From positions 10,362,975 to 10,426,974 of the forward strand of contig NC_061068.1 of assembly GCF_021917145.1 (NCBI RefSeq): a DNA stretch of 64,000 bases, written 5' to 3'. Numbering within the stretch: the stretch's first letter is position 1; each line of letters starts with the position of its first letter. A model generated the notes under the pieces. The model was not told the origin of the DNA, did no database searches, and saw only the letters and a list, made by a program, of their open reading frames with translations. The position numbers were made by a program, and so were the translations under genes. Positions 1 through 48,182 of this stretch are shown in pieces. This DNA is from Hypomesus transpacificus. Lineage: Eukaryota > Chordata > Actinopteri > Osmeriformes > Osmeridae.

Positions 1-3000
1 ATATATTAGCCCTCTCTCCAAGAGATCACAACACATACAAACCTAGCATTACAGTTAAATTATCTTCAGAGATGTAGCCTAACCTTGGAATTATGTGTGC
101 TTTTTGATGCTGTATTGTTTTAATAGAAGGTGAGAGGCTGAAGAGTTACCAGTACATGCAATTCTGATTCAAAGAACATTACAATATACACACTAAGACC
201 TAACAAAGAAATAAATGTAAGTATCCCCAGAACATTGATCCTAAACTGCTGTAGGTAATCTGCCCCCTGGCTTACAATCTACGCCTACATTTTGCCTCTA
301 GCCTTTGACATTGAACTGGCTACTCTAAAACTCACAGACTGGTGCTAGACAAGCAGCTAGGTATATAAACTACAAAATGTGAGAGGGGTCTGCCGAGCTG
401 AGCCATACCCGTATGAGTGAGGCTGTGTCTCGACAGGTGGTAGCGCTGAACAAACCTCATGTCACACATGGAACAAGCGTATGGCTTCACTCCTGAATGA
501 CCAGAGCATCAATTTATTATTGCTGCCCAACTTCCTTAATCCAATTAAGTCTGTTTGACATGCCTATGCAAAATTGATGGTTTACAACCACAGATGTCAA
601 TTATAATGCCTTGCAGGGGATATACCATTTTTTAACTTAATTTCATCCGAATTAAAAAATGTTTTGGATGGATATTTTCTAAGGTTTAGTCCACAACAAC
701 ACATCACATGAGCTGATGACATCACCTGGTTGTGTAGATCAGTATCAATATGCTGTATATTTATATAAAACTGGAATTTAATTTTTCCAAGCCCTGGACA
801 AAGGGGGTTGGGTTAATCCTGGTCTTAATTACGGGTACAGTAGGCGTGTGCATACCCATATGAGTGAGGCTGTGTCTTGCCAGGTGGTAGCGCTGAAAAA
901 ACCTCTTGTCACACATGGTGCAAGCGTAAGGTTTCACTCCTACACACACAGAGCAGCAATGTATCATTACTGTGCATCACTGCCCACCAAAGTACTTAAA
1001 CATGGGTCTAAGATTCTGCAATTATTGGTTATTAACCACTGATGCCAATTCATGCAATACATGAAATTTACATTTAAAAAATCCTCTAGGTGTTTTTGTG
1101 GATGCTTGGCCACAACCACAACAGACTGAACTAACACTCTTTTTACAAGACTTGTGAAGGCTTGTAGCCAACATTTAACACTGCAAAATCGGAGGGATTA
1201 AATGCTATGGATTCACATCTAAATGTCAATGTTTGGTTTGCCTACATTGTTACTGTGATTTAACTCTCCAATCTTCATCTTTCCTCCCTAATTACTAAAT
1301 GAGGGGTACGGTGAACGGACCCATACCCGTATGAGTGAGGCTGTGTCTCGCCAGGTGGTAGCGTTGAAAAAACCTCATGTCACACATGGTACATGCGTAC
1401 GGCTTCACTCCTAAATGACCAGAGCATTCATTTATAAATCTAATTAATTCATCTAGCTGTACAACCCATTTATGTCAATGTAACCTACAGCTGTGCAAAT
1501 TGATGGGTTAATAACCACTGAAGTCGATTTCATCAAATACTTTACAGTGGATTGACAACAATAAAGTTTACTTGGCTCAAACCAGTGTTTCTAATCGTTT
1601 TCATAGATTTAGTCCACAACACATCACAAGCTGATGATGTCACCTGGCAATAATATTACAAGCCCTGGCCAAAGTGCTTTTCATTGGATGTCATTGTGTA
1701 AACATTTTTGTATATTTAGATACAAATGATCTGTTTTCATGAGAACTGTGTTTTATTAATTCTGCCAAACCAGGTTTTGGGTTCATCTAGATCTTAATTA
1801 CGGGTACAGTAGGCGTGTGCATACCCATATGAGTGAGGCTGTGTCTTGCCAGGTGGTAGCGCTGAAAAAACCTCTTGTCACACATGGTGCAAGCGTAAGG
1901 TTTCACTCCTACACACACAGAGCAGCAATATTTCATTACTAAGCCTAACTGTCCAGCCCCTTTAAGTCTTTAAACATTAGGCCTGGCTGCTATTATTGGT
2001 TATTAACCACTGATGCCAATTCATACACAGTATTCACAATACTCTAGGTAAATAATTGTTTTTTTAAAGAAACAAAAGTCCAAATAAATACTCATATCAC
2101 AAACTCAACACAATGCATGAGCTTATGTTACATTGTAGTAATGCTTGTATGTCAATATTCTCCTTTAACAAGTGTGCTTGTGATAAACCATCTAGCCTAC
2201 TACTTTGCTCCCTAACATCTAAGTGAGAGGGGTACGGTGTGCGGACGCATACCCGTATGAGTGAGGCTGTGTCTCGCCAGGTGGTAGCGCTGAACAAACC
2301 TCATGTTACACATGGTGCAAGCGTACGGCTTCACTCCTAAATGACCAGAGCATTAGTATATCATTTTTTAAATTGTTTTAAATATTTTTTAAATGTTTCA
2401 TGCTCTTCCAATAATCCATGTTAAACACATATATATGCTAAATTGATAGGTGGTTAATAACCAATGCTAATCCATGCATTTACTTACAGGGGATTTTCAA
2501 AGTGAATATAATTACTTTCACCAATTAAAATTGTGCTTTTTAAGCATTTTATACAATCCACAACCACAACACATCACATGAGCTGATGATGTCATCTAGT
2601 GGTAAGTCAAATTCCATCTTTTCCATTAGGGAAAGGTGGTCAGATATAAAAAGATAATACATATTTCACCTGGCCCATATAAGTACAAACACATTAGGCC
2701 CAAATCCTGCTAACCCTGTATACTGGGGACCAGGTGTATCAACAAGGTGAGCGGGTGCATACCCATATGAGTGAGGCTGTGTCTCGCCAGGTGGTAGCGC
2801 TGAAAAAACCTCTTGTCACACATGGTGCAAGCGTACGGCTTCACCCCTACACACACAGAGCACCAACTTCAGCATCATAAAAGTTCTTCAACTGCCAAAA
2901 ACGATCGAATTAAACTTTACTAGGCTACTTCAACTTGAAACAAGTTTAGTAAAGTTGCTTTGTTCACCAGCCAGTGCCATTAATTAGACTAGATTTGAAT

Positions 3001-6000
3001 AACCAATCAACGCAACGCAAACAAGGCAATTCAGAAAATCTGCAGAAAGTGAGTTGACCACAGGCAACTAATTTCGCCAATGTGTCCCCAAATAGCTCGT
3101 AATCAACGCGAGTCAAAATAGTTATGGCCAGGTTAAAAATTTTGAAGGTAATGCTGGTTGACATCCGGGTTCACGTCATTCTATTCATCTGAATATTGAC
3201 AATTTTAGGCAGTTGGAATACATCCGAGTACATAACATACATTGATATAACTGATGTTACCATGGTATTGCATGTCTAACTTCTTGATGTACTTAATGTG
3301 TCAAGTATACAGCTCTGAAAGCTTATGCCAAACAAACATTGCCATTACTCCAACATGAATACTAAACTGATTGCTCAATACAAATTACTCAAACAATACA
3401 AACTCGAGTTTGATGTAGCCACTATTATTTATCTATCTAGTCCCATAAAGTGGTGGGGTTGTGAATCTGACCTCATGCACTGGTGGGCCTCATGCATGTT
3501 CAGACTGATGAAAGTGAAGGGCATATAAAAGAGAAGCATACCTGTATGAGTGAGGCTGTGTCTCTCCAGTTGATACCGCTGAATAAACCTCATGTCACAC
3601 ATGGAGCAAGCATACGGCTTCACACCTAAACATACACAGAACATATAAAAACTTTAGCCATTTTTTTGTATAATTTTAAAAGCATACATTTGTTTATTGT
3701 GCTAACCTACACATTTGCTGTATTTAATTCTGAACAAAACTCAACCAATTGCAATACATTTAGCATGTTCAAGTTTACCCTTTCATCAAGAACGATACAC
3801 GGGCAGATAATCTGTGTATTGGTCACAATAACAAGGGAATGACACCCAAAAAACAAAGTTTGTAAGACTTTAAATGGCAATGAGAGTCAAAATCTTACAC
3901 CACCAGTTGTGTTAGTTCAAGTTAACAATACTCATATATAGGAAATGTGAACCAAACAAACGTGAAACAGTGCATCTTTCACATAAAATTGGACTTTAGG
4001 TATGCGGCTTGATATAGCTAGCACAGGGGTCTTTTGAGTGTCATGGACCTTTAAATTGGAAATTTGTTTAAAAATGCTGGCCAGTAAAAATTAAACTTCT
4101 CATTTTACATCTGCTGTCATTGTTGAATGTATAATACATCTTTAAACATTGGACACAAACAATTATTTGAACAGTAGTTTCCAACAAAGCCATATTCCAT
4201 ATGTACAAATTGTCAATGGGAAGGCATGTACCCAAACAAGAAAATTACTATCTTACCTAGATTGATCTAATGTTATAAGACACTATGGGCTATCATTAAG
4301 ACGCAAGAACATGTGAGACAATGTGAGAATCCACCAGATTAAAGTTTTGGAGGTTTATTTAAAGAATAAATAAGTGCTACAAAAATGTCCTTTAAACTGA
4401 CAGAACTTTACTAAAGAGAGGATTTCAGTAAGGTGGGAACAGTTAGTAGACCCATACCCGTATGAGTGAGGCTGTGTCTCGCCAGGTGGTAGCGCTGGAA
4501 AAACCTCATGTCACACATGGAACAAGCGTATGGCTTCACTCCTAAACGCATACAGTACCAAATTTTAGAATCCCATGAACTGTGTACACATAACATATTT
4601 GTACATACATTGTCAATTTTACTGTGGTTCATATTGCGTCTAACATAGCCTTTGAAATAAACACAAAACTCAAGGGACCAACCCATCTCCCTTCATCATG
4701 CGAAATAAAGGTGACAGACCCTAAACTGTCATCAAAACAGTTAAATGATGCATCACCAATCAAAATAACTGCCATTCCAAATTCTCATGGAGTACATATT
4801 CCTAATTCTCATGGGGTACATATTCCTATGTGAGGATACCTCCTTTATTAGAGACAATTAACACCTTGTGCACTGCGTGAATTTTGTGATCCTTGGGTAT
4901 TTTGTAATGCAGGAGAGAGGGGTAAGGTAAGACGCATACCCGTGTGAGTGAGGCTGTGTCTTGCCAGGTGGTATCTCTGGAAAAATCTCATGTCACACAT
5001 GGAGCAAGCATATGGCTTCACCCCTACACACACACACACACAGAGTATCAACTTTAGTAAAGCTCTGTACACAACAGGACTCAAGCCAACTGTTCATAGT
5101 GGTGTCCCCTTGTAAGCTGTTCTGATAACACAGGACCAGCCCCATCGGTGGCTCCAATCGAACCTCTGACTACACAATTTTACACGCAAGACAATTTTAT
5201 AGCAATTTGCCATTCAATTATTTCAATGCAGGAATGGCAAGACATTGGCCAGATCAGAATAAGACAAATCAAGGATTTTGCAAGAATATTTGTCCATGGA
5301 TACAAAAACTCAAAGGTTTACTAAGACAACACCAAAGTTTGTTGAGATGTCAGTAAACTAAATAAAGAACCACCACTCGATTAAAAACCCTTTGGTAGCA
5401 TTTCCATGAGGCTTCTGTGACAACAGGGGTACAGGAAGCCTACCCGTATGAGTGAGGCTGTGTCTCGCCAAGTGGTAGCGCTGGAAAAACCTCATGTCAC
5501 ACATGGAGCAAGCGTATGGCTTCACCCCTACACACAGAGTATAAAACATTAGCTAGCCACCACCAACAAGTTGGTTTAGCACATCATGAAATAAAAGGTT
5601 GTTCACAACCACAAAGATTTACCACGCAATGGAGATATAGTCTAAAGACCTACAGGTTAACCCATTCAGTCTCAGGGCAGCTTCTAATAATAAACCTAGA
5701 ATACAATGAAGATGATATGAAAATGTACTGGGTTTTTATCAATTGAATCTAGCTGTCAGCAGGTAAATGTAAAGGCACCATTCATCATTGAACGTGTTCA
5801 AAAACCCTATAAACTAAGACGGGTTCGGAATTTGTGCCAACTGAATCCTTTGATTCCAACTGAAATGAAAACTCTCCAAGATGCAGGATTTGTAAAGGCT
5901 ATAACAGGCGGACGCATACCCGTATGAGTGAGGCTGTGTCTCGCCAGGTGGTAGCGCTGGAAGAACCTCATGTCACACATGGAACAAGCGTATGGCTTCA

Positions 6001-9000
6001 CCCCTACACACACAGAGTTATACATTAGCTAGATAGTCCCAATTAGATTACAAATGCTTGTACTTCCATGAGCAATATAAATATGTTTATTGATAAGTGT
6101 CACAAAGGACTTGCTTGAAGATGATGGTTATCAATAAACTACAGCCATTTAACCAAATACATAAACATATAGGCTTTTTTTGTTAAGCCAGGGAGAAATA
6201 AAAAAACAGGTTCTCAAAATAGAAACAAAGCCTAAATCTTTGACTTTTCCCCAAAAAATAATCTCTGGTTAATCCGTCATTTCTTCTTCTTCCCTTACAT
6301 TCTAGTGGCACCACAAGCAATCGTCAAGTACTAAAGCTTGGACATTAAGGGACTATTTCCATATCAAGATAGGAGATTTCGTCAAAGGCTAGGTGGCTTC
6401 AACCATAACTCCCTTTAATGCACATTAAGGTTGGAAAGTTTCTTAATCTTTGTCCAACAGGTACTTAAATATCCTATAGACATATCCTTTAGGGGATATC
6501 AAACTGTTATAGAAGACATCAATTCAACATACACTCAACATTTTTCTGAGTGGAGGGGGGCTTGTTTAATGTGAGATGGGTATGGAAAAAGGACGCATAC
6601 CCGTATGAGTGAGGCTGTGTCTCTCCAGGTGGTAACGCTGGAAAAACCTCATGTCACACATGGAACAAGCGTACGGCTTCACCCCTACACACACAGAGCA
6701 CAAGAATATTAGCTATTCAGTCTACACAATTGAAATTGTTTTTTTGTCTTTTATATGTATATATTATTTGCTTTGTACGGTTATTGATTACATTTATGAA
6801 GAATGGACCCATGATGCCATTGAGAAGTAATTGATCTAATCTCCAAATGATAACAAATAAGATCAAATCTAAATGAAATGCTAATAATTGATTCAAGTTT
6901 AAAGCTCACTTATATCCATGGGGATATATTTCACATGTTCAGTACAGACGAGAAGTTTATGACACAGATTACTTACCGATACTATGTTTAATGTTTCTTT
7001 TAGACAAGCAAAAACAGACAAGGATTGCAGACTACAACGCAGGAATAAGCCACAATACAGTAATGCATTGTGCAGGAGTGAATGTGCTTTTTAAGAAAGA
7101 AAGTACGTCAAACTAAGTCTAAGTACGTCATAGTCCCTTGATGTCCATGCGGTTACCTGTTCTCCCAACCAAACCATATAAAACAAAAGCTACATCTAAA
7201 CTGTAATGATGTCTTGTAATAACTTGCATCTCATTTTCTGTGTACCTCTAGGTTTAACTGTGATAATCACAAATAGGCCAAGAAATAGACCTGTCCTTTG
7301 CACTTTCACTGGTGTTGGGGGACCCATTTGTATCTATGACGACTCCTTGCCTTCACATGGTGGAGATAAAAGGAATTTTGGGCTTTGTTGGAAATTACTG
7401 TCCAATGACAAATAGAACTCTAGGAAACTTAAGTGAGATGGGTACGGTAAGATGACGCATACCCGTATGAATGAGGCTGTGTCTCTCCAGGTGGTAACGC
7501 TGAATAAACCTCATGTCACATATGGCACAAGCATACGGCTTCTCCCCTAAACCGAAGAGCACCAGTTTTAGTCAATGGTCCCCACAGTGAACACCAAGAA
7601 ACTGTGAGGCAACAGCTGACACCAAACAAGCTCTTCAGGAGGCCATTTCAAAATCTTTAAATTGATGCACACTCCTTAAGAAACCACCCATAACTTAATC
7701 CATACTGGTGTTTTCTGATGGCCTCTGGCTGAGCATTTACTTACTAAATCAGGCTTTTTTCCCTCTAAATTGTAAACGTACACCTACAGAAGCTGGTCGT
7801 GGTGATTTGGACACATACCTGTATGAATGAGGATGTGTCTCTTCAGGTGATAGCCACTCCTAAATGCTCCATAACAATGATCACAGATGAAATTTTTCTG
7901 CACTTTGGACACTGGACAGTTACCATTCTCATCCACAACCACCACCTACACAGGACAGAGAGGATAGAGGTGTGAAATACACCGTAAAAAGCTAAGCATT
8001 ACATACAGATTCTAACTAACACTAAGATAAGGACTGGCAAAGTAATCGTAATAGCTTAGTTTTTTAATAAGAAATGGCAGTCAAGCAGTCAGTTATAAAA
8101 CTAGATGAATCCACATTCTTTTGTTAAGTATTGGGCCTTTTAAGTGCATAAACTCTACATAAGGGTTAACGCCCTCACACCCCCCATGATACAGCTCCCC
8201 CTCTTGTGCACACAATTGCAGTTATTGTGCTCCTCTCTTCTCCCCTCCTGTCCCCTCCCCCTCTTTCCTCTCCAGAGACCCCCACCCCCCCTACATCTCC
8301 CTGAGCTCCTCCCCCCACCCCCACACAAACAAAATGTGCTCACTGGAAGGCACCAACTTAGCTACAGGCAGAAAAAGTCTGTCTTCGTCCAAAGAACTGT
8401 ACAGACCCATCCACCCACCAAGTTGAGAACACATAAATACTTGTGCAGTTAGAACAAAGCCAGATTTAATTGAATACTTGAATATTCATGTTACTGACCT
8501 TGCCTCCCCGTCCATCCTGCTCTCTCACTTTACAGGGGGTTCCAGATTTCCTGTTCTTCTTTTTTAGCTGCATCTCCTCATTGGCCCTCATCTCCTTCTC
8601 ATCCAGCAAGCGGGGTGCATGAAAGTCACCCTCCTTCCGAATGAGCTTTCATCACAGATGGAAGAGGACACTTAATCTACAGTCTCACCATTTCCTGATA
8701 GCTAAATAATGTTACTATGCAGATCTGTATGTAAAATCTGTTAGAAAATGTATCACAGTGGTTGATGATATGAAACTTTTTTTTTTTTTTTCTCAATCTT
8801 GACAACCGTATTTTTCGGAAAACAAGCCACATTTTCTATAAAACGCACCCCACCAGAATGGGAGCTTTGTGTTTGTAAATCTGATTATAACCCGCCCTGG
8901 AATATATGCCACACTTAATACGAACAATGATACCAAGCAATGCACAATATTTTAGATATAGTATAAGTTTAGCTAGCTTGCAAATCCTGAGGATAGCCTA

Positions 9001-9936
9001 CCAAAGTTGGATAGCCTACCAAAGTTGAATTAGCCAATGTCGTTAGCGATGCTAGCTAACATTGGTTTACTAGCTGTATATAACATTTCACTGGGTCTTT
9101 AAGCCATTTGATTTACTGAAATGAATATGAAATGTTATGTGCCATTTTCCTACTTTAGCAAGTCACTGTATTTCCAAGCCCTGATAGTGTAACTGAGACG
9201 ACACAGTAAATAATTACTCTTTCAAATAATAAGCCCCAGTTCAAGTGTTGAGCATTAAATTAGCTGCATGGTCTGTAGGCATCTTGGGACAAAGCCACTT
9301 TTTTGTTCTAAAACCGGGCTATACGCTGCTTCGAAATATAAGCCGTACAACCACAAGAAAATTGTCAAATTGGGGTACAAGCCGCGGTTTTATTTCCGAA
9401 AAATACGGTATTTGCATCCCAACATAAGTGCTAAAGAAGAATTAGTGTTCAAAATCTAACCAAGGGTGGACAGCTCATCCCAGACGGCAGGATCATGTGG
9501 CTCTGAGGCCCACGGTCAGGGCCTTCCCTCTGAGGGGGTCCGTGGCCAAGGGGGGTCATCATTTTCTTGGGTGGACCGGCCATGGAGCTCGCCTGCATCA
9601 GGGCCATACTTGAGAGCACGGCCTCACAGCCAAGCAGCCCCGCCTGGAAATTAGATGGTTGAGTTAAGGAAAAGCTTTGGTATTGTAAATCCAACTTCAG
9701 AATGATGAAGCCTATTATAACCAAGGTGTTATTTTAAGGACAAACAAAAGTATGTATGAGTTAGTGATAAAACTTAGACAAAGTTACAAACATATTAAAT
9801 ATCACTACATAAAACGACAACATCCTGAGTGACATGTTTGCATTACTGAATTTGTATTTTGGAGCTTTAATTTCTTGATAGGAAAACAAACCCATTTCAT
9901 ATGGTCGCGGACTGAGCTGCTGGGCAGGTGTGACAT
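1..9936 (-). CDS. znf740: znf740-like C2H2 zinc finger gene with tandemly amplified finger-2 exon (3' end outside window)
   Basis: ZNF740 is a nuclear C2H2 zinc finger protein that binds C/G-tract DNA. Coding exons read right to left: 9892-9936 (ATG at 9936, [15 protein letters not shown]), 9461-9643, 8499-8645, 7819-7945 (finger 1), then 13 exons of exactly 84 bp at 7463, 6601, 5920, 5444, 4940, 4458, 3542, 2763, 2253, 1825, 1327, 856 and 409 (left edges). Phases agree throughout: the first three exons end in phase 0, and finger 1 and all 84-bp exons end in phase 1. The N-terminus resembles fish ZNF740 from memory (stretches such as [10 protein letters not shown] and [18 protein letters not shown]). 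Using every exon gives 1594 nt (about 531 codons) before the missing C-terminal exon, against roughly 193 aa for human ZNF740. No finger-3 or stop exon is seen in 1-408, so the gene runs off the left edge. The family call is firm; which copies are spliced together is unknown. Confidence 0.9.
409..492 (-). CDS. znf740: znf740 finger-2 exon copy 13 (last in window)
   Basis: 84 bp, phase 1-1, acceptor cattcag, donor ACG G|gtatgg. Core [17 protein letters not shown] (Ser instead of Ala before Arg). It is the last copy visible before the left edge; more copies and the C-terminal exon probably lie outside. Positions 1-408 contain no exon I can recognise. Confidence 0.83.
856..939 (-). CDS. znf740: znf740 finger-2 exon copy 12 (THM/DKR type)
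   Basis: 84 bp, phase 1-1, acceptor gtgtgtag, donor ATG G|gtatgc. Identical in every base to copy 10. Core [17 protein letters not shown]. Confidence 0.85.
1327..1410 (-). CDS. znf740: znf740 finger-2 exon copy 11
   Basis: 84 bp, phase 1-1, acceptor catttag, donor ACG G|gtatgg. Core [17 protein letters not shown]; zinc ligands intact. Confidence 0.83.
1825..1908 (-). CDS. znf740: znf740 finger-2 exon copy 10 (THM/DKR type)
   Basis: 84 bp, phase 1-1, core [17 protein letters not shown] ending LTHM. Its 84 nucleotides are identical to copy 12 (856-939), and the identity extends into both flanking introns, indicating very recent duplication or conversion. Confidence 0.85.
2253..2336 (-). CDS. 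znf740: znf740 finger-2 exon copy 9
   Basis: 84 bp, phase 1-1. Core [17 protein letters not shown], with Asn for Asp after the second Cys and Val in place of Ile/Phe; zinc ligands intact. It belongs to the THT-type series with copies 11 and 13, spaced about 920 bp apart. Confidence 0.83.
2763..2846 (-). CDS. znf740: znf740 finger-2 exon copy 8 (THM/DKR type)
   Basis: 84 bp, phase 1-1, donor ATG G|gtatgc. Core [17 protein letters not shown] ending LTHM: Met replaces Thr at the start of the inter-finger linker, and Lys replaces Met before the helix. It shares these changes with copies 10 and 12. Confidence 0.83.
3542..3625 (-). CDS. znf740: znf740 finger-2 exon copy 7 (divergent helix)
   Basis: 84 bp, phase 1-1, donor ACA G|gtatgc, acceptor ttag then GTGTGAAG. 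Core [17 protein letters not shown]: helix position 3 is Gln instead of His, the only copy with a changed base-contacting residue there. It retains Ile and Glu like the ancestral-type copy 1. It is separated from copy 6 by about 830 bp. Confidence 0.85.
4458..4541 (-). CDS. znf740: znf740 finger-2 exon copy 6
   Basis: 84 bp, phase 1-1, donor ACG G|gtatgg. Linker TGVKPYAC, core [17 protein letters not shown]; all zinc ligands present. Confidence 0.85.
4940..5023 (-). CDS. znf740: znf740 finger-2 exon copy 5
   Basis: 84 bp, phase 1-1. The protein is the same as copies 3, 4 and 6, but several codons differ (for example CAG AGA in the helix), so synonymous changes have accumulated without damaging the finger. 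A (CA)n tract flanks the acceptor. Confidence 0.85.
5444..5527 (-). CDS. znf740: znf740 finger-2 exon copy 4
   Basis: 84 bp, phase 1-1, acceptor gtgtgtag, donor ACG G|gtaggc. Linker TGVKPYAC, core [17 protein letters not shown]; all zinc ligands present. Confidence 0.85.
5920..6003 (-). CDS. znf740: znf740 finger-2 exon copy 3
   Basis: 84 bp, phase 1-1, with intact splice sites. Linker TGVKPYAC, core [17 protein letters not shown]; all zinc ligands present. The protein is the same as copies 4, 5 and 6. Confidence 0.85.
6601..6684 (-). CDS. znf740: znf740 finger-2 exon copy 2
   Basis: 84 bp, phase 1-1, acceptor gtgtgtag, donor ACG G|gtatgc. Linker [25 protein letters not shown]; both Cys and both His are intact. 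It keeps Glu at helix position 5 (HLERH), as copies 1 and 7 do. Confidence 0.85.
7463..7546 (-). CDS. znf740: znf740 finger-2 exon copy 1 (ancestral-like, TGEKP linker)
   Basis: 84 bp, phase 1-1. It is the only copy that keeps the canonical TGEKP linker, reading [20 protein letters not shown] with helix QRYHLER and ending LIHTG. It sits next to finger 1 and is the closest copy to mammalian ZNF740 finger 2 (CDMRFIQKYHLERH), so it is probably the original from which the others were duplicated. Confidence 0.88.
7819..7945 (-). CDS. znf740: znf740 coding exon 4: zinc finger 1
   Basis: 127 bp, starting in phase 0 after tgtag and ending in phase 1 (ACA G|gtatgt). It encodes [14 protein letters not shown] and then a complete finger: C-x2-C (CDHC), helix RSGYHLKRH, second His in LIHTG. 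This is the finger 1 that precedes finger 2 in mammalian ZNF740. Its phase-1 donor can join any of the 13 following 84-bp exons without a frameshift. Confidence 0.9.
8216..8325 (-). repeat. Polypyrimidine/C-rich tract (G-rich in znf740 pre-mRNA)
   Basis: A CT/C-rich stretch of about 110 bp in the intron between znf740 coding exons 3 and 4. On the transcribed sense (minus) strand it is G/GA-rich with many runs of four or more G, so G-quadruplex formation in DNA or pre-mRNA is plausible. The open frames across it are low-complexity artefacts. Confidence 0.6.
8499..8645 (-). CDS. znf740: znf740 coding exon 3 (basic linker region)
   Basis: 147 bp (49 codons, phase 0-0), acceptor gaaag, donor AAG|gtcagt. 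It encodes a charged segment ([19 protein letters not shown], then [19 protein letters not shown]) that precedes the finger domain. The basic KKKNRK patch could serve as a nuclear localisation signal (inference). Confidence 0.88.
8805..9409. mobile_element. Palindromic MITE, about 605 bp
   Basis: Inverted termini: ACCGTATTTTTCGGAAA at the left and its complement TTCCGAAAAATACGGT at the right. The motifs AAGCCAC and AAGCCGC recur inside near each end. A related fragment (CCGTATTTTCCGGAC) occurs near 14791. The superfamily and target duplication are unclear. It sits in the znf740 intron between coding exons 2 and 3. Confidence 0.6.
9461..9643 (-). CDS. znf740: znf740 coding exon 2
   Basis: 183 bp (61 codons, phase 0-0) between acceptor ttccag (above 9643) and donor TTG|gttag. 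It encodes a Met/Pro/Gly-rich segment from [13 protein letters not shown] to MSCPPL, including [10 protein letters not shown], characteristic of the ZNF740 N-terminal region. No DNA-binding motif lies in this exon. Its donor is about 50 bp from the edge of a palindromic MITE at 8805-9409. Confidence 0.88.
9892..9936 (-). CDS. znf740: znf740 coding exon 1 (start codon)
   Basis: Encodes [15 protein letters not shown], which I recognise as the fish ZNF740 N-terminus, and ends at TGG|gtttgt in phase 0. The ATG at 9936 was chosen because this peptide joins in frame to [13 protein letters not shown] of the next exon. The 5' UTR continues to the right; its upstream exon(s) were not located. Confidence 0.85.
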
Positions 9937-19169: not shown

Positions 19170-19660
19170 ATTCGGGCGGGGATTATGGTGCTGAAGGGAG
19201 AGCTGAAGTCCACAAACAGGATCCTGGTGTAGGATGCAGGGGTGTCCAGGTGCTGGAGGGTGAAGTGGAGAGCCATGTTAACTGCATTGTCCACAGACCT
19301 GTTGGCTCTGTAGGTAAACTGCAGGGGGTCCAGGAAAGGGTCTGTGAGGTGTGCCAGTAGGCCTGCAAGAGCTCGAAATACCTCACTACCACGGAGGCCA
19401 GGACGATGGGTCTGTAGTCATTAAGTCCTGTTGGCCTTGGCTTTTTGGGCACAGGGATGATGGGGGAGGACTTGAGACAGGCTGGCACATGGCATGTCTC
19501 CAGGGCGGTGTTGAAAATGTTGGTGAACACCGGAGACAGCTGGTCAGCGCAGTGCTTGAGGGTGACAGGAGAGACAGAGTCCGGCTCAGCTGCTTTGCGG
19601 GGCTTCTGCCTCTTGAACAGTCTGATGATGGGGAGGGGGGGGGGAGTCCATATAAGGGGT
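19170..19660 (-). pseudogene. Non-LTR retrotransposon (LINE) reverse transcriptase fragment
   Basis: The minus strand encodes [20 protein letters not shown] followed by [16 protein letters not shown], the palm/finger region of LINE reverse transcriptase. The frame then shifts near 19380 and continues as an RANRSVDNA-type segment in another frame. It is closely related to the plus-strand copy at 26550. The 5' side is cut by the hAT element at 19670. Dead fragment; the clade (L2/CR1/Rex-like) is not resolved. Confidence 0.8.
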
Positions 19661-19669
19661 AGACAGTCC

Positions 19670-20773
19670 CAGTGGCGTTTTTATATGTAAAAAATCGGTG
19701 GGGCAAAAAACATTTCAAAATATAGGATACCAGTAAGCTACAAAAGTCCCTCTTGCTACTGATGTGTTTATTTAACACGTCAACAAACAGCGTGGCTCCA
19801 CACAACACTTTTAACGACAAAGCGGCTTGCTTCTACCAGGTGTTGTAGTACACAAATTGGAGAGAGGGAGACCTTCTTGTGTAATTGCTCTCCTTGTCTC
19901 TCTCACACACACACACATGTAAAATTACCACTGTCATATTTACAAACCTAAATTAGGAATGCAACCAAGGCAAGCTCAGAACCAATGTGCCTACAGGGCC
20001 ATGCGCAAACAGCAATGAGCTCAACACAACGGAAGGCCACAACGAAGCAGAAATACAACTTTTTAGGGTTACAGATCCATTCTATGACAACAACCAGATA
20101 AGCATGGACACACTGACACGTCACCATCTTCATCTATCGATCCAGCCCCAAAATATGACCAATGCATGGACCAGCACCACAAAGGCAGGATGACAAAATA
20201 TGCTTTCACTCACCAAGGCTGAGAGCTCACTTGAAGAGAGAGGTGCCTTCTTTTGTATGCTAACTAGACTAACCGTTAGCCTCTTTCTTCAAAAACCACT
20301 CCACTTTAAACCTACGGTTACTTTTACCAGCAGTTTGAGCGATGACAATATCGTGGCTGATGGGCACCACTTAAGCTGCTTTACTTCAACTTTCTCCTCC
20401 AAATTAAGGGTTTATAGGGTATATAACCGGTGCTCAAGTATGAAATCCACTTTATTCATTTTCTCAAGTTATCTGGCGTTTGTGAAGCTAACAAGCTATG
20501 GAGGATTATAGGGGCCAAAACTAAATAAATAAATACTTGGATAAATAAATAATTATATAACACAAAGCTTAAATAAATGACACAAAATATATAAATGTTA
20601 TATGTATTTGTGTGTATATATATATATGTTTACGTTTTCATGTGTTTACATTTATTCATTTATACTTACATTTATTAATTTATACTTACATTTATTTATT
20701 TATACTTACATTTATCCACGGTGAAACTTCCTGCAGCACTGCCCCACCTGCCCCTAATGACCAGTCGCCACTG
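19670..20773. mobile_element. hAT-superfamily non-autonomous element, 1104 bp, perfect 8-bp TSD
   Basis: Terminal repeats CAGTGGCG at the left and CGCCACTG at the right, flanked by a perfect 8-bp direct duplication GACAGTCC (19662-19669 and 20774-20781), the hAT signature. Subterminal GGTGGGGC and GCCCCACC also match in inverse. No transposase frame remains; the interior is AT-rich with TTATACTTACATTTATT repeats near 20640-20715. Confidence 0.85.
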
Positions 20774-20781
20774 GACAGTCC

Positions 20782-22535
20782 CATTGTCTTTCAATGTGAT
20801 TTATATAATTGTGTTAGTTTATAGTGTACTCTACCTACTTTCCATGAGCATGAGGTACATTTATTGATGTTGGTTAGTTAATTTGCACTTAAATTACAGT
20901 ATTGCTCAATCGCTAGTCAGTCCCTGTTTTCAGAGTCTGTAACAGCAAACAGTAATTTAGTATTCTAATTTGAACTGAAAATGCCTCGTGAGCATTGTCT
21001 TGTGATGATTTCGCGCAGGCGCAAGGAAGGGGGAACGGGAACTGAATTCTCCGGAACACCGGCAGACCCGCTTAGCTTGCTTTCTCTTCGTTTTGTCACA
21101 CACCCACACCAGGGCTGCCAACTTCTGAAAAAACCTTGGAGTGAGATTTGGTGGGGCAAACCCAAATTTAGCTGCGTAGGCTATTGCGTAGAAGCTATTT
21201 TAATCAGCGCATGATCAGACGTGAACATGATCAGACGTGCATAAGAAAGTGCCGTTTTGCTCCCTCTCTCTTTATCTAATACACGTGTACCCAGGTCGTT
21301 GCCATGGAGATATAGACTAACCGAAACTATCGTTTTGGTTCCTGCTAGTTAAGAAATGTCTTCGTAGCCTGTATGCAAGTAGGTGAATTAATCTATCAAA
21401 CTATCCAATTTCTTACATTTACATTTAGTCATTTAGCAGACGCTCTTATCCAGAGCGACTTACAGGGAGAAACACAAGAAAAAAACAACACATCGACAAA
21501 ACAGGCAGCAATCACCGATTAGGACACACCCTGTGATAAAATGGGTATGGCCAGAGGTACTGTAGACAAGATTGTGGAAGTGGGACGATTACAGTTCTAA
21601 GTTTGCGTGGGACAATGTGGGACATGTTACCAACACTAAAACATAACCTGAAACTATTATATAATGTTTATCTAACTTAATAAAAACATTTGTATTATGC
21701 TGTGTTCTTTAGTAAGCTACCTTCCAGAAAACACCATTACATTTAGCTACATTTATTCATTTAGCAGACGCTTTGATCCAAAGCGACTTCCAAGAGAGAG
21801 CTTTACAAAGTGCATAGGTCACTGATAATAACAACAAGATAGCCCCAAAGCATTGCGGGTAGCCAAAGCACACATTGTGAACAACCAAAAAATAAGTGCC
21901 AAAGGAAAAAACCATAAGAGCATGTAATTAGCAAGTTACAATGTAATAACATGTCTTTATTTTACATGTCATTTAAATTCAACATCACTGTGCCCAAAGG
22001 CAGCAGGCATCTTAAACCCAGATATGTCCAAGTCCAGTCTTTAGTAAAATAACATTTCTCATTTTTGTTGCCATTATGCCGGCTTGTAAAATTTTTATTT
22101 TTAAAAGGCAAAATAACGCATGTACGTTTTCTTAATATGTTAATTAAAAACCAACAGACTGATGAAAATACGGGACATTTTCTCAATATGCGACATGCGG
22201 GACAAGGGGTGAAAATGCTGTGGTAGGCTACAACGCAAAGCGAGACGGGTGGACACTCTAACATTTCTACAACTGTCAACAAAAACAGGCTACCGTAATT
22301 CAATTATTTAGGAGAGTGAGTCGGAAGTACAAAGTGTAAGCTACAGAATTGGAACAGAGCCTAAACTTTTTTTTAAAGGTAGGCGGTCTCAAAATGGGCT
22401 GGGCTGGGCTACGTAAAACTTGTCGCCTACAAGTCTTGCTAGATATTTGCTGTTGGCTATCTAGGATCTCAACATCTCTAACAAGATTGCGACTGAGCTG
22501 GCCGACCTGGCAAAACAACCTAGATAAACGGGACA
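20782..22535. other. Intergenic upstream of the TNFRSF-like gene
   Basis: Contains two SINE/LINE-type tail fragments on the minus strand (21413-21468 and 21743-21800, each with TTTAGCAGACGCT and AGCGACTT). No exon is recognised. Promoter elements for the TNFRSF-like gene could not be identified. Confidence 0.4.
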
Positions 22536-26338: not shown

Positions 26339-26549
26339 GACTTTGCATTAAACTTTGCTGAGTTCCAGTGCTGTTGTTATGTATTGGTTGAAAATGTAGA
26401 ATATTTTTCACAACAGTTTCAGGACATGTCCTTTTCAATGTCTTAAATATAACTATAAATCCATCTCTGTGTCTCGATCTCATGAACCGGGCACTTAATA
26501 AAGTTACAATTTGGCAGGTGTTTAGCTCAGGACCCAATGATATGCTGTC

Positions 26550-27206
26550 TCTCCAGCCACCCTCAAGCACTGTGCTGACCAGCTGTCTCCGGTGTTCACC
26601 AACATCTTCAACACCTCCATGGAGACGTGCCATGTGCCAGCCTGTCTCAAGTCCTCCATCATCATCCCTGTGCCCAAAAAGCCAAGGCCAACAGGACTTA
26701 ATGACTACAGACCAGTCACCCTGACCTCTGTGGTAATTAAGTCTTTTGAATGCCTGGTGCTGGCACACCTCAAAGCCATCATGGACCCTCTCCTGGACCC
26801 CCTGCAGTTTTCCTACAGAGCCAACAGGTCTGTAGACGACGTAGCTAACATGGCTCTCCACTTCACCCTCCAGCACCTGGACACCCCTGCATCCTACGCT
26901 AGGATCCTGTTTGTGGACTTCATCTCTGCCTTAATCCCTGCTCTGCTTCAGGACAAGCTCTCCCAGTTGAACGTGCCTGACTCCACCTGCAGGTGGATCT
27001 CAGACTTCCTGTCTGACAGGAAGCAGTGCGTTAAGCCGGGAACACACGTCTCTGACTCCCAGTCCATCAGCACCTGATCCTTGGGCTTGGTCCTTTCCCC
27101 TCTGCTCTTCTCCCTGTACACCAACAGCTGCACCTCCAGTCATCAGTCTGTCAAACTCCTGAAGTTTGCGGATGACACCACCCTCATTGGGCTCATCTCT
27201 GGTGGG
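26550..27206 (+). pseudogene. LINE reverse transcriptase fragment (5' part of an interrupted copy)
   Basis: The plus strand encodes [20 protein letters not shown], then [35 protein letters not shown] (motif A region), a stop at 27076-27078 where SPQG-type sequence is expected, then LLKFADDTTLIGLISGG with the catalytic FADD motif. The motif A region is shortened ([11 protein letters not shown]). Coding similarity stops abruptly at 27206. It is homologous to the minus-strand copy at 19170. Confidence 0.85.

Positions 27207-38646: not shown

Positions 38647-48182
<9,536 letters not shown>

Follow-up and report, generated by a model that had tools for sequence, protein, structure and literature searches.

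A znf740-type gene of Hypomesus transpacificus lies on the minus strand of a 64,000-nucleotide stretch of DNA (GCF_021917145.1, NC_061068.1 (C9), positions 10362975-10426974), hereafter the window, which was read together with the 40 kb to its left; negative coordinates continue the window numbering leftwards past position 1. This gene carries 14 symmetric cassette exons; with a probability of about 0.6, they arose from a crossover of finger 1 with finger 2, were kept by selection and are variably included to tune the number of zinc fingers. As far as the genomic sequence goes, the array of 14 one-finger exons is real, intact and selected, and its birth event is readable; its use is most likely a variable finger number set by splicing.

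The array lies entirely within the phase-1 intron that separates finger 1 from finger 2. Thirteen of its exons fall inside the window (409-7546), and the preliminary description of this DNA was right about them: on the minus strand, each is exactly 84 bp long, with AG before and GT after it, in phase 1-1 and with intact ligands. Its copy number of 13 is correct for the window but one short overall, a fourteenth copy lying just outside. Each cassette encodes one finger that follows, with minor deviations, the pattern (G)VKPYACxMCDMRFxQRYHLxRHSLTHT. The C-x2-C-x12-H-x3-H motif is complete in all 14, both cysteines and both histidines being kept, and neither a stop nor a frameshift occurs in any of them. 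Pairwise, the 13 exons in the window share 69-84 of 84 bases, and a protein with finger 1 and six of the 14 cassettes scored above the cut-offs of Pfam zf-C2H2 and zf-H2C2_2. A profile of the 14 exons, run over about 103 kb, recovered the 14 (13 across profile positions 1-84 and e7 across 2-83), gave partial matches to the finger-2 exon (1-69) and the finger-1 exon (49-83), and otherwise had just three matches, with E of 0.38 to 7; therefore, no dead cassette copy was found in these 103 kb. In the 437-Mb assembly, a 28-residue query of a single cassette gave 16 places at E<=1e-6, namely the 14 cassettes, the gene's own finger 2 and finger 2 of a paralog on C18; the best 150 of 1063 candidates were scored, and distant arrays of other finger types could remain.

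The cassettes had been described as frame-neutral, and five combinations, built with 0, 1, 1, 2 or 14 copies, each kept the frame up to a single terminal stop. When all cassettes are skipped, the model protein has 237 residues and three fingers, and when all 14 are used it has 629 residues and 17 fingers. The possible range of the gene could thus be 3 to 17 fingers, in place of the 1 to at least 14 proposed before. The copy nearest finger 1 (e1), formerly taken for the ordinary finger 2, is the first cassette; the canonical finger-2 exon is found on the far side of the array. There are 15 introns of 272-832 bp, and those separating cassette units measure 344-832 bp.

The gene is presumably a ZNF740, going by its likeness to the mammalian sequence. 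Judged against it, the three-finger C-terminal region (C2H2, C2H2, C2HC) has ZNF740-like residues, presumably the VVVV..NF-CEHC/CDHC of finger 1, a matching finger 2 and the SRTDRLLRH of the C2HC finger 3. The layout of human ZNF740, which has three fingers, is complete here and similar at C18, but here 14 extra one-finger exons stand between fingers 1 and 2. In the C18 paralog, the three fingers follow one another with an intron of 119 bp and no cassette between the first two, so that of the two znf740 paralogs in this genome only one was found to have the array. At E<=1e-5, a finger-1 search of the assembly, in which 67 of 67 candidates were scored, gave four places; besides this gene, they are C18 and genes on C13 and C17 that look to be of the ZNF148/ZNF281 type. 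The latter two have one 84-bp, phase 1-1 finger exon each (C13:6167390-6167473 and C17:2305620-2305703) at the same finger-1 intron position. In these four-finger genes the exon is single and ends in HSG, whereas the array cassettes end in a finger-1-like HTG, and e1 shares 49 and 47 of 84 bases with these middle-finger exons against 67 of 84 with its own finger 2. A lone frame-neutral finger exon at this intron position therefore occurs in the wider family, and the array of 14 is the unusual part.

The founder cassette appears to be a chimera. Aligned with finger 2 from the acceptor and with finger 1 from the donor, e1 follows finger 2 at all of the first 26 informative sites and then finger 1 at nine of the next ten, the sites where it matches neither finger (4 of 40) being omitted. 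The same switch is found in e2 (27/28, then 9/10), e7 (26/26, then 10/11), e14 (29/29, then 7/7) and the cassette consensus (27/29, then 8/8), and in each case, e1 included, none of 20,000 permutations did as well. It falls somewhere from exon position 48 to 63, in the part coding for the helix, in which both fingers resemble each other, and the two partial profile matches given above point to it independently. As a paralog control, the first 54 bases of e1 match its own finger 2 at 48 positions and that of the C18 paralog at 42, while the last 30 match its own finger 1 at 27 and that of the paralog at 20. Because e1 is nearer to the fingers of its own gene, the founder was probably made from these after the separation of the two paralogs.

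The intron sides carry further traces. Over the first 12 bases of the intron, the cassettes agree with the donor side of finger 1 at 6-10 positions and with that of finger 2 at 4-8, and 12 of 14 cassettes are nearer to finger 1. In an ungapped flank comparison, shuffles were exceeded (p<0.05) by 11 of 14 cassettes directly downstream of the donor and by 12 of 14 directly upstream of the acceptor; the flanks downstream of finger 1 (p about 0.28) and upstream of e1 (0.47) had no excess, and that upstream of finger 2 a weak one (0.027). By this measure, shared descent of the intron ends is supported among most cassettes, but not in the case of the finger 1 intron. It is well supported that the founder arose when the finger-1 and finger-2 exons of this gene itself crossed over unequally, in their shared helix-coding stretch. 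The finger-1 exon of one chromatid would have recombined with the finger-2 exon of the other, giving a hybrid with the finger 2 acceptor and the finger 1 donor. Since the intron is phase 1, such a hybrid would automatically be 84 bp long and in phase 1-1, and later duplications, some of one unit and some of two, would have led to 14 copies.

The pairs e8/e9, e10/e11 and e12/e13 form a two-exon unit, which is the best-preserved part of the array. Within it, exons are identical at 78-84 of 84 bases (93-100%), ungapped; identity is 54-67% in the inner intron, where 68-105 columns are gapped, 53-78% in the 130-base upstream flank and 37-60% in the 340-base downstream flank, these gapped values standing without a random-sequence baseline. 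Intactness of all copies had been ascribed to selection or very recent expansion. Very recent expansion is rejected, because even the copies most alike have strongly diverged introns between them; selection is likely. Over 91 cassette pairs, which are non-independent, the mean rate of non-synonymous change (dN) is 0.058 and that of synonymous change (dS) 0.406, a dN/dS of about 0.14. Counted on a tree, 27 changes are synonymous and 15 non-synonymous, which, with 16.0 of the 81 sites being synonymous, gives a binomial p of 4e-10 in a test that ignores transition bias. Under a substitution-only neutral simulation, the chance that all 14 copies remain intact is 5e-6 if each copy changes by 5%, and 2e-11 if it changes by 10%. 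These results support the view that the copies are old and have been kept by purifying selection on the protein. Because of the intron divergence, the synonymous bias and the neutral simulation, the array is neither fresh nor decaying. A pseudo-exon array was also considered and rejected. In an unrooted exon tree, e1, e7 and e14 stand apart from the others with a support of 95, and the other splits have 20 to 97. The exons e10 and e12 are the same across 84 bases, synonymous sites included, although their introns differ, which may reflect local conversion or base-level selection.

The helix contact residues are nearly invariant, with Q at -1 and R at +6 in 14 of 14 cassettes and Y at +2 and H at +3 in 13 of 14. 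By the usual C2H2 rules, such helices would read G-rich triplets like GGA or GGN, and the known ZNF740 motif consists of runs of C/G. The cassettes would thus add more of the same recognition and not new specificities, and it is because of this near-invariance that finger number is argued to be the variable. Donor scores, calculated with assumed base frequencies, are 4.4-8.4 in the cassettes against 9.6 in finger 1 and 11.0 in finger 2. Of 20 acceptor bases, 10-13 are pyrimidines in the cassettes against 16 in finger 1 and 14 in finger 2. Weak repeated sites flanked by stronger outer ones would fit partial inclusion. The cassettes, mostly with weaker splice sites than the flanking exons, would then be included in variable number to give isoforms of 3 to 17 fingers; the number of fingers would change and not their kind, and binding to G-rich triplet repeats would be expected to become longer or tighter. 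That the cell picks by splicing how many copies of one helix to use, so as to make graded proteins for G-rich tracts of differing length, is a more tentative extension.

Several points weigh against this account. Not every cassette is clearly weak: the U1 pairing energy of e4 (-10.0) is better than that of the finger 1 donor (-7.8), and the donor score of e7, 8.4, is near the 9.6 of finger 1. With regard to the origin, the intron starts of e10 and e12 are slightly nearer to finger 2 (7 against 6 of 12), beyond +6 the finger 1 intron does not resemble those of the cassettes (p about 0.28), and the 3' half of the cassettes, which ends in HTG, is also like the C2H2 consensus in general, which makes a donor other than finger 1 conceivable. 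Gene conversion confined to exons could add to their likeness, as in e10 and e12. Finally, variable inclusion, expression and protein are predictions from the genome of one species.

Four other explanations of the array were weighed. Tandem repeats often cause assembly errors, and a collapsed or falsely expanded repeat was considered as an artefact. It was rejected on the differences between introns: because these differ strongly and their lengths vary (15 introns, 272-832 bp), each copy is unique sequence within a single 22.7-Mb contig, and an artefact is scarcely credible. A passenger array, whose copies are rarely used and kept alike by exon gene conversion, could account for the identity of e10 and e12 at 84 of 84 bases beside differing introns, and for the introns outside e8-e13, which share only pieces of 22-41 bases, mostly beside exons. 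Gene conversion by itself does not produce synonymous bias, however, and leaves unexplained both the 27 synonymous against 15 non-synonymous changes and the intact splice sites and ligands of all 14 copies with no dead copy found; we regard such an array as very improbable.

Constitutive use, in which all 14 cassettes are joined into one 17-finger protein and the splitting into exons has no regulatory role, would agree with the intact AG..GT borders of every cassette, with purifying selection across the copies and with full inclusion in frame to 629 residues. It seems unlikely, since all 14 donors and acceptors score under those of the finger-1 and finger-2 exons (by the donor matrix and the pyrimidine count, the U1 pairing of e4 excepted) and the C18 paralog has only the three-finger form in its genome. 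Mutually exclusive choice of one cassette each time, as in the insect Dscam clusters, had been offered earlier and is suggested by the tandem homologous exons of the same size. A weak hint comes from a conserved element just past the donors (about CCGTACCCCTCTCACTTA), whose best partner (-22.2 kcal/mol) lies in the G-rich intron before finger 1 and beats four of five mononucleotide shuffles (-16.8 to -22.9, every second position scanned), though one shuffle, at -22.9, is better still. When three introns were scanned for pairing with the 13 internal introns at k = 8 to 11, the results stayed within the range of 60 dinucleotide shuffles each: for the two introns on either side of the array, 18 to 42 of the 60 did at least as well as the real sequence, and so did 5 to 31 for the upstream intron, which came nearest to a signal (5 at k = 11, 7 at k = 10). 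This search for docking and selector elements used simple complementarity in one species with few shuffles and has limited power. In addition, 84 bp is neutral, so the frame forces no exclusion, and with recognition residues nearly alike, choosing one copy changes little. One-at-a-time choice is thus weakly disfavoured and, on the whole, improbable; tuning of finger number by variable inclusion is preferred.

Further features of possible relevance to splicing were seen around the cassettes. Acceptors end in TAG in 13 of 14 cassettes and in finger 1 itself, and a UG repeat precedes the TAG in eight of 14 (e2, e3, e4, e5, e8, e10, e12 and e14). The finger 1 acceptor ends in TGTGTAG, and that of finger 2 has UGs further up and ends in CTCTTTCAG. 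The UG feature is stronger in the cassettes but not confined to them, and control by a UG-binding splicing factor is possible. A sequence close to CCGTACCCCTCTCACTT persists, complete or in pieces, at about +10 to +30 after e1, e2, e5 and e9-e14 in otherwise mostly diverged introns; it could be a splicing element or the mere reach of conversion. The intron before finger 1 has a G-rich/GGA-rich tract (8230-8331, minus strand), which holds the best partners of the conserved intron element. It is the kind of sequence that this factor might itself bind, and self-regulation is possible. Neither strand of -1300..9800 gave a G-quadruplex motif with four runs and loops of up to 4.

Known systems share some of these traits. 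The cluster exons of Dscam diversify a binding face, and arrays of the KRAB type and PRDM9 repeat an 84-bp unit in one exon with varying copy number. Dscam also has many homologous exons in a row, whereas here the exons are frame-neutral, the contact residues near-identical and pairing elements not clear. In KRAB and PRDM9 arrays the units stand head to tail in a single exon and their number changes only by germline mutation; here introns intervene and the unit is the exon, so that splicing could change the number too. Exons 4, 6, 9 and 17 of Drosophila Dscam are given as mutually exclusive tandem clusters (PMC1397879), KRAB-type C2H2 fingers as usually encoded by a separate exon (PMC12539977), and znf740b among the genes of zebrafish (PMC9748118). 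Such an array is not described in the titles, abstract openings and passages searched in the open-licence literature, including PMC11350041, PMC5414179 and PMC10119265; gene models of genome databases, in which it may already stand annotated, lie outside this search.

The birth of the array would have needed a single crossover of neighbouring finger exons, with a frame-neutral cassette, expandable indefinitely, as the result. It would be a clean case of the birth of a symmetric cassette exon, because the crossover point is readable in the sequence. The number of fingers in C2H2 proteins is thought to change mainly by germline change inside one exon. If the proposed use is true, splicing could alter finger number within one animal and between tissues while the recognition code stays constant, and the array would offer a natural set of forms in which to study how affinity and the length of the site increase as fingers are added.

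General searches contributed little. Tandem Repeats Finder did not report the array, its longest period being 500 and most copies being spaced beyond its tolerance. The matches listed for an 85-residue query against the own genome were dominated by single-exon C2H2 genes, this locus not being among them. A viral-contig scan gave no result and an NCBIfam search no match, and in searches of solved structures the best 60 of 215 and of 245 matches were generic C2H2 relatives, none of them named ZNF740. The exons of the gene are collected in Table 1.

Table 1. Exons of the znf740-type gene in window numbering, in the order of transcription.
Feature	Position	Strand	Remarks
Coding exon N1	9461..9643	-	Open reading, AG..GT; ATG likely start (putative); ends in phase 0
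Coding exon N2	8499..8645	-	Phase 0-0; open reading, AG..GT
Finger 1 exon	7819..7945	-	127 bp, phase 0-1; place with 100% identity in the finger-1 genome search
Cassette e1	7463..7546	-	Apparent chimera, its 5' part from finger 2 and its 3' part from finger 1; linker TGEKP
Cassette e2	6601..6684	-	84 bp; profile match
Cassette e3	5920..6003	-	84 bp; profile match
Cassette e4	5444..5527	-	84 bp; profile match
Cassette e5	4940..5023	-	84 bp; profile match
Cassette e6	4458..4541	-	84 bp; profile match
Cassette e7	3542..3625	-	His to Gln at helix position 3
Cassette e8	2763..2846	-	K/M type
Cassette e9	2253..2336	-	84 bp; profile match
Cassette e10	1825..1908	-	Identical to e12
Cassette e11	1327..1410	-	84 bp; profile match
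Cassette e12	856..939	-	Identical to e10
Cassette e13	409..492	-	84 bp; last one inside the window
Cassette e14	-97..-14	-	Just outside the window
Canonical finger-2 exon	-646..-528	-	119 bp, phase 1-0; outside the window
Finger-3 exon	-1066..-893	-	Last exon; carries NFSRTDRLLRHRRLCQG and the stop; outside the window

Elsewhere in the window, the 3' element of a UnaL2 long interspersed nuclear element is present at 21423-21476 (minus strand), and open reading frames at 19183-19680 (minus) and 26541-27077 (plus) resemble reverse transcriptase by eye. A long exon at 47019-48182 (plus), a piece with no Pfam match, resembles LIMA1/EPLIN.

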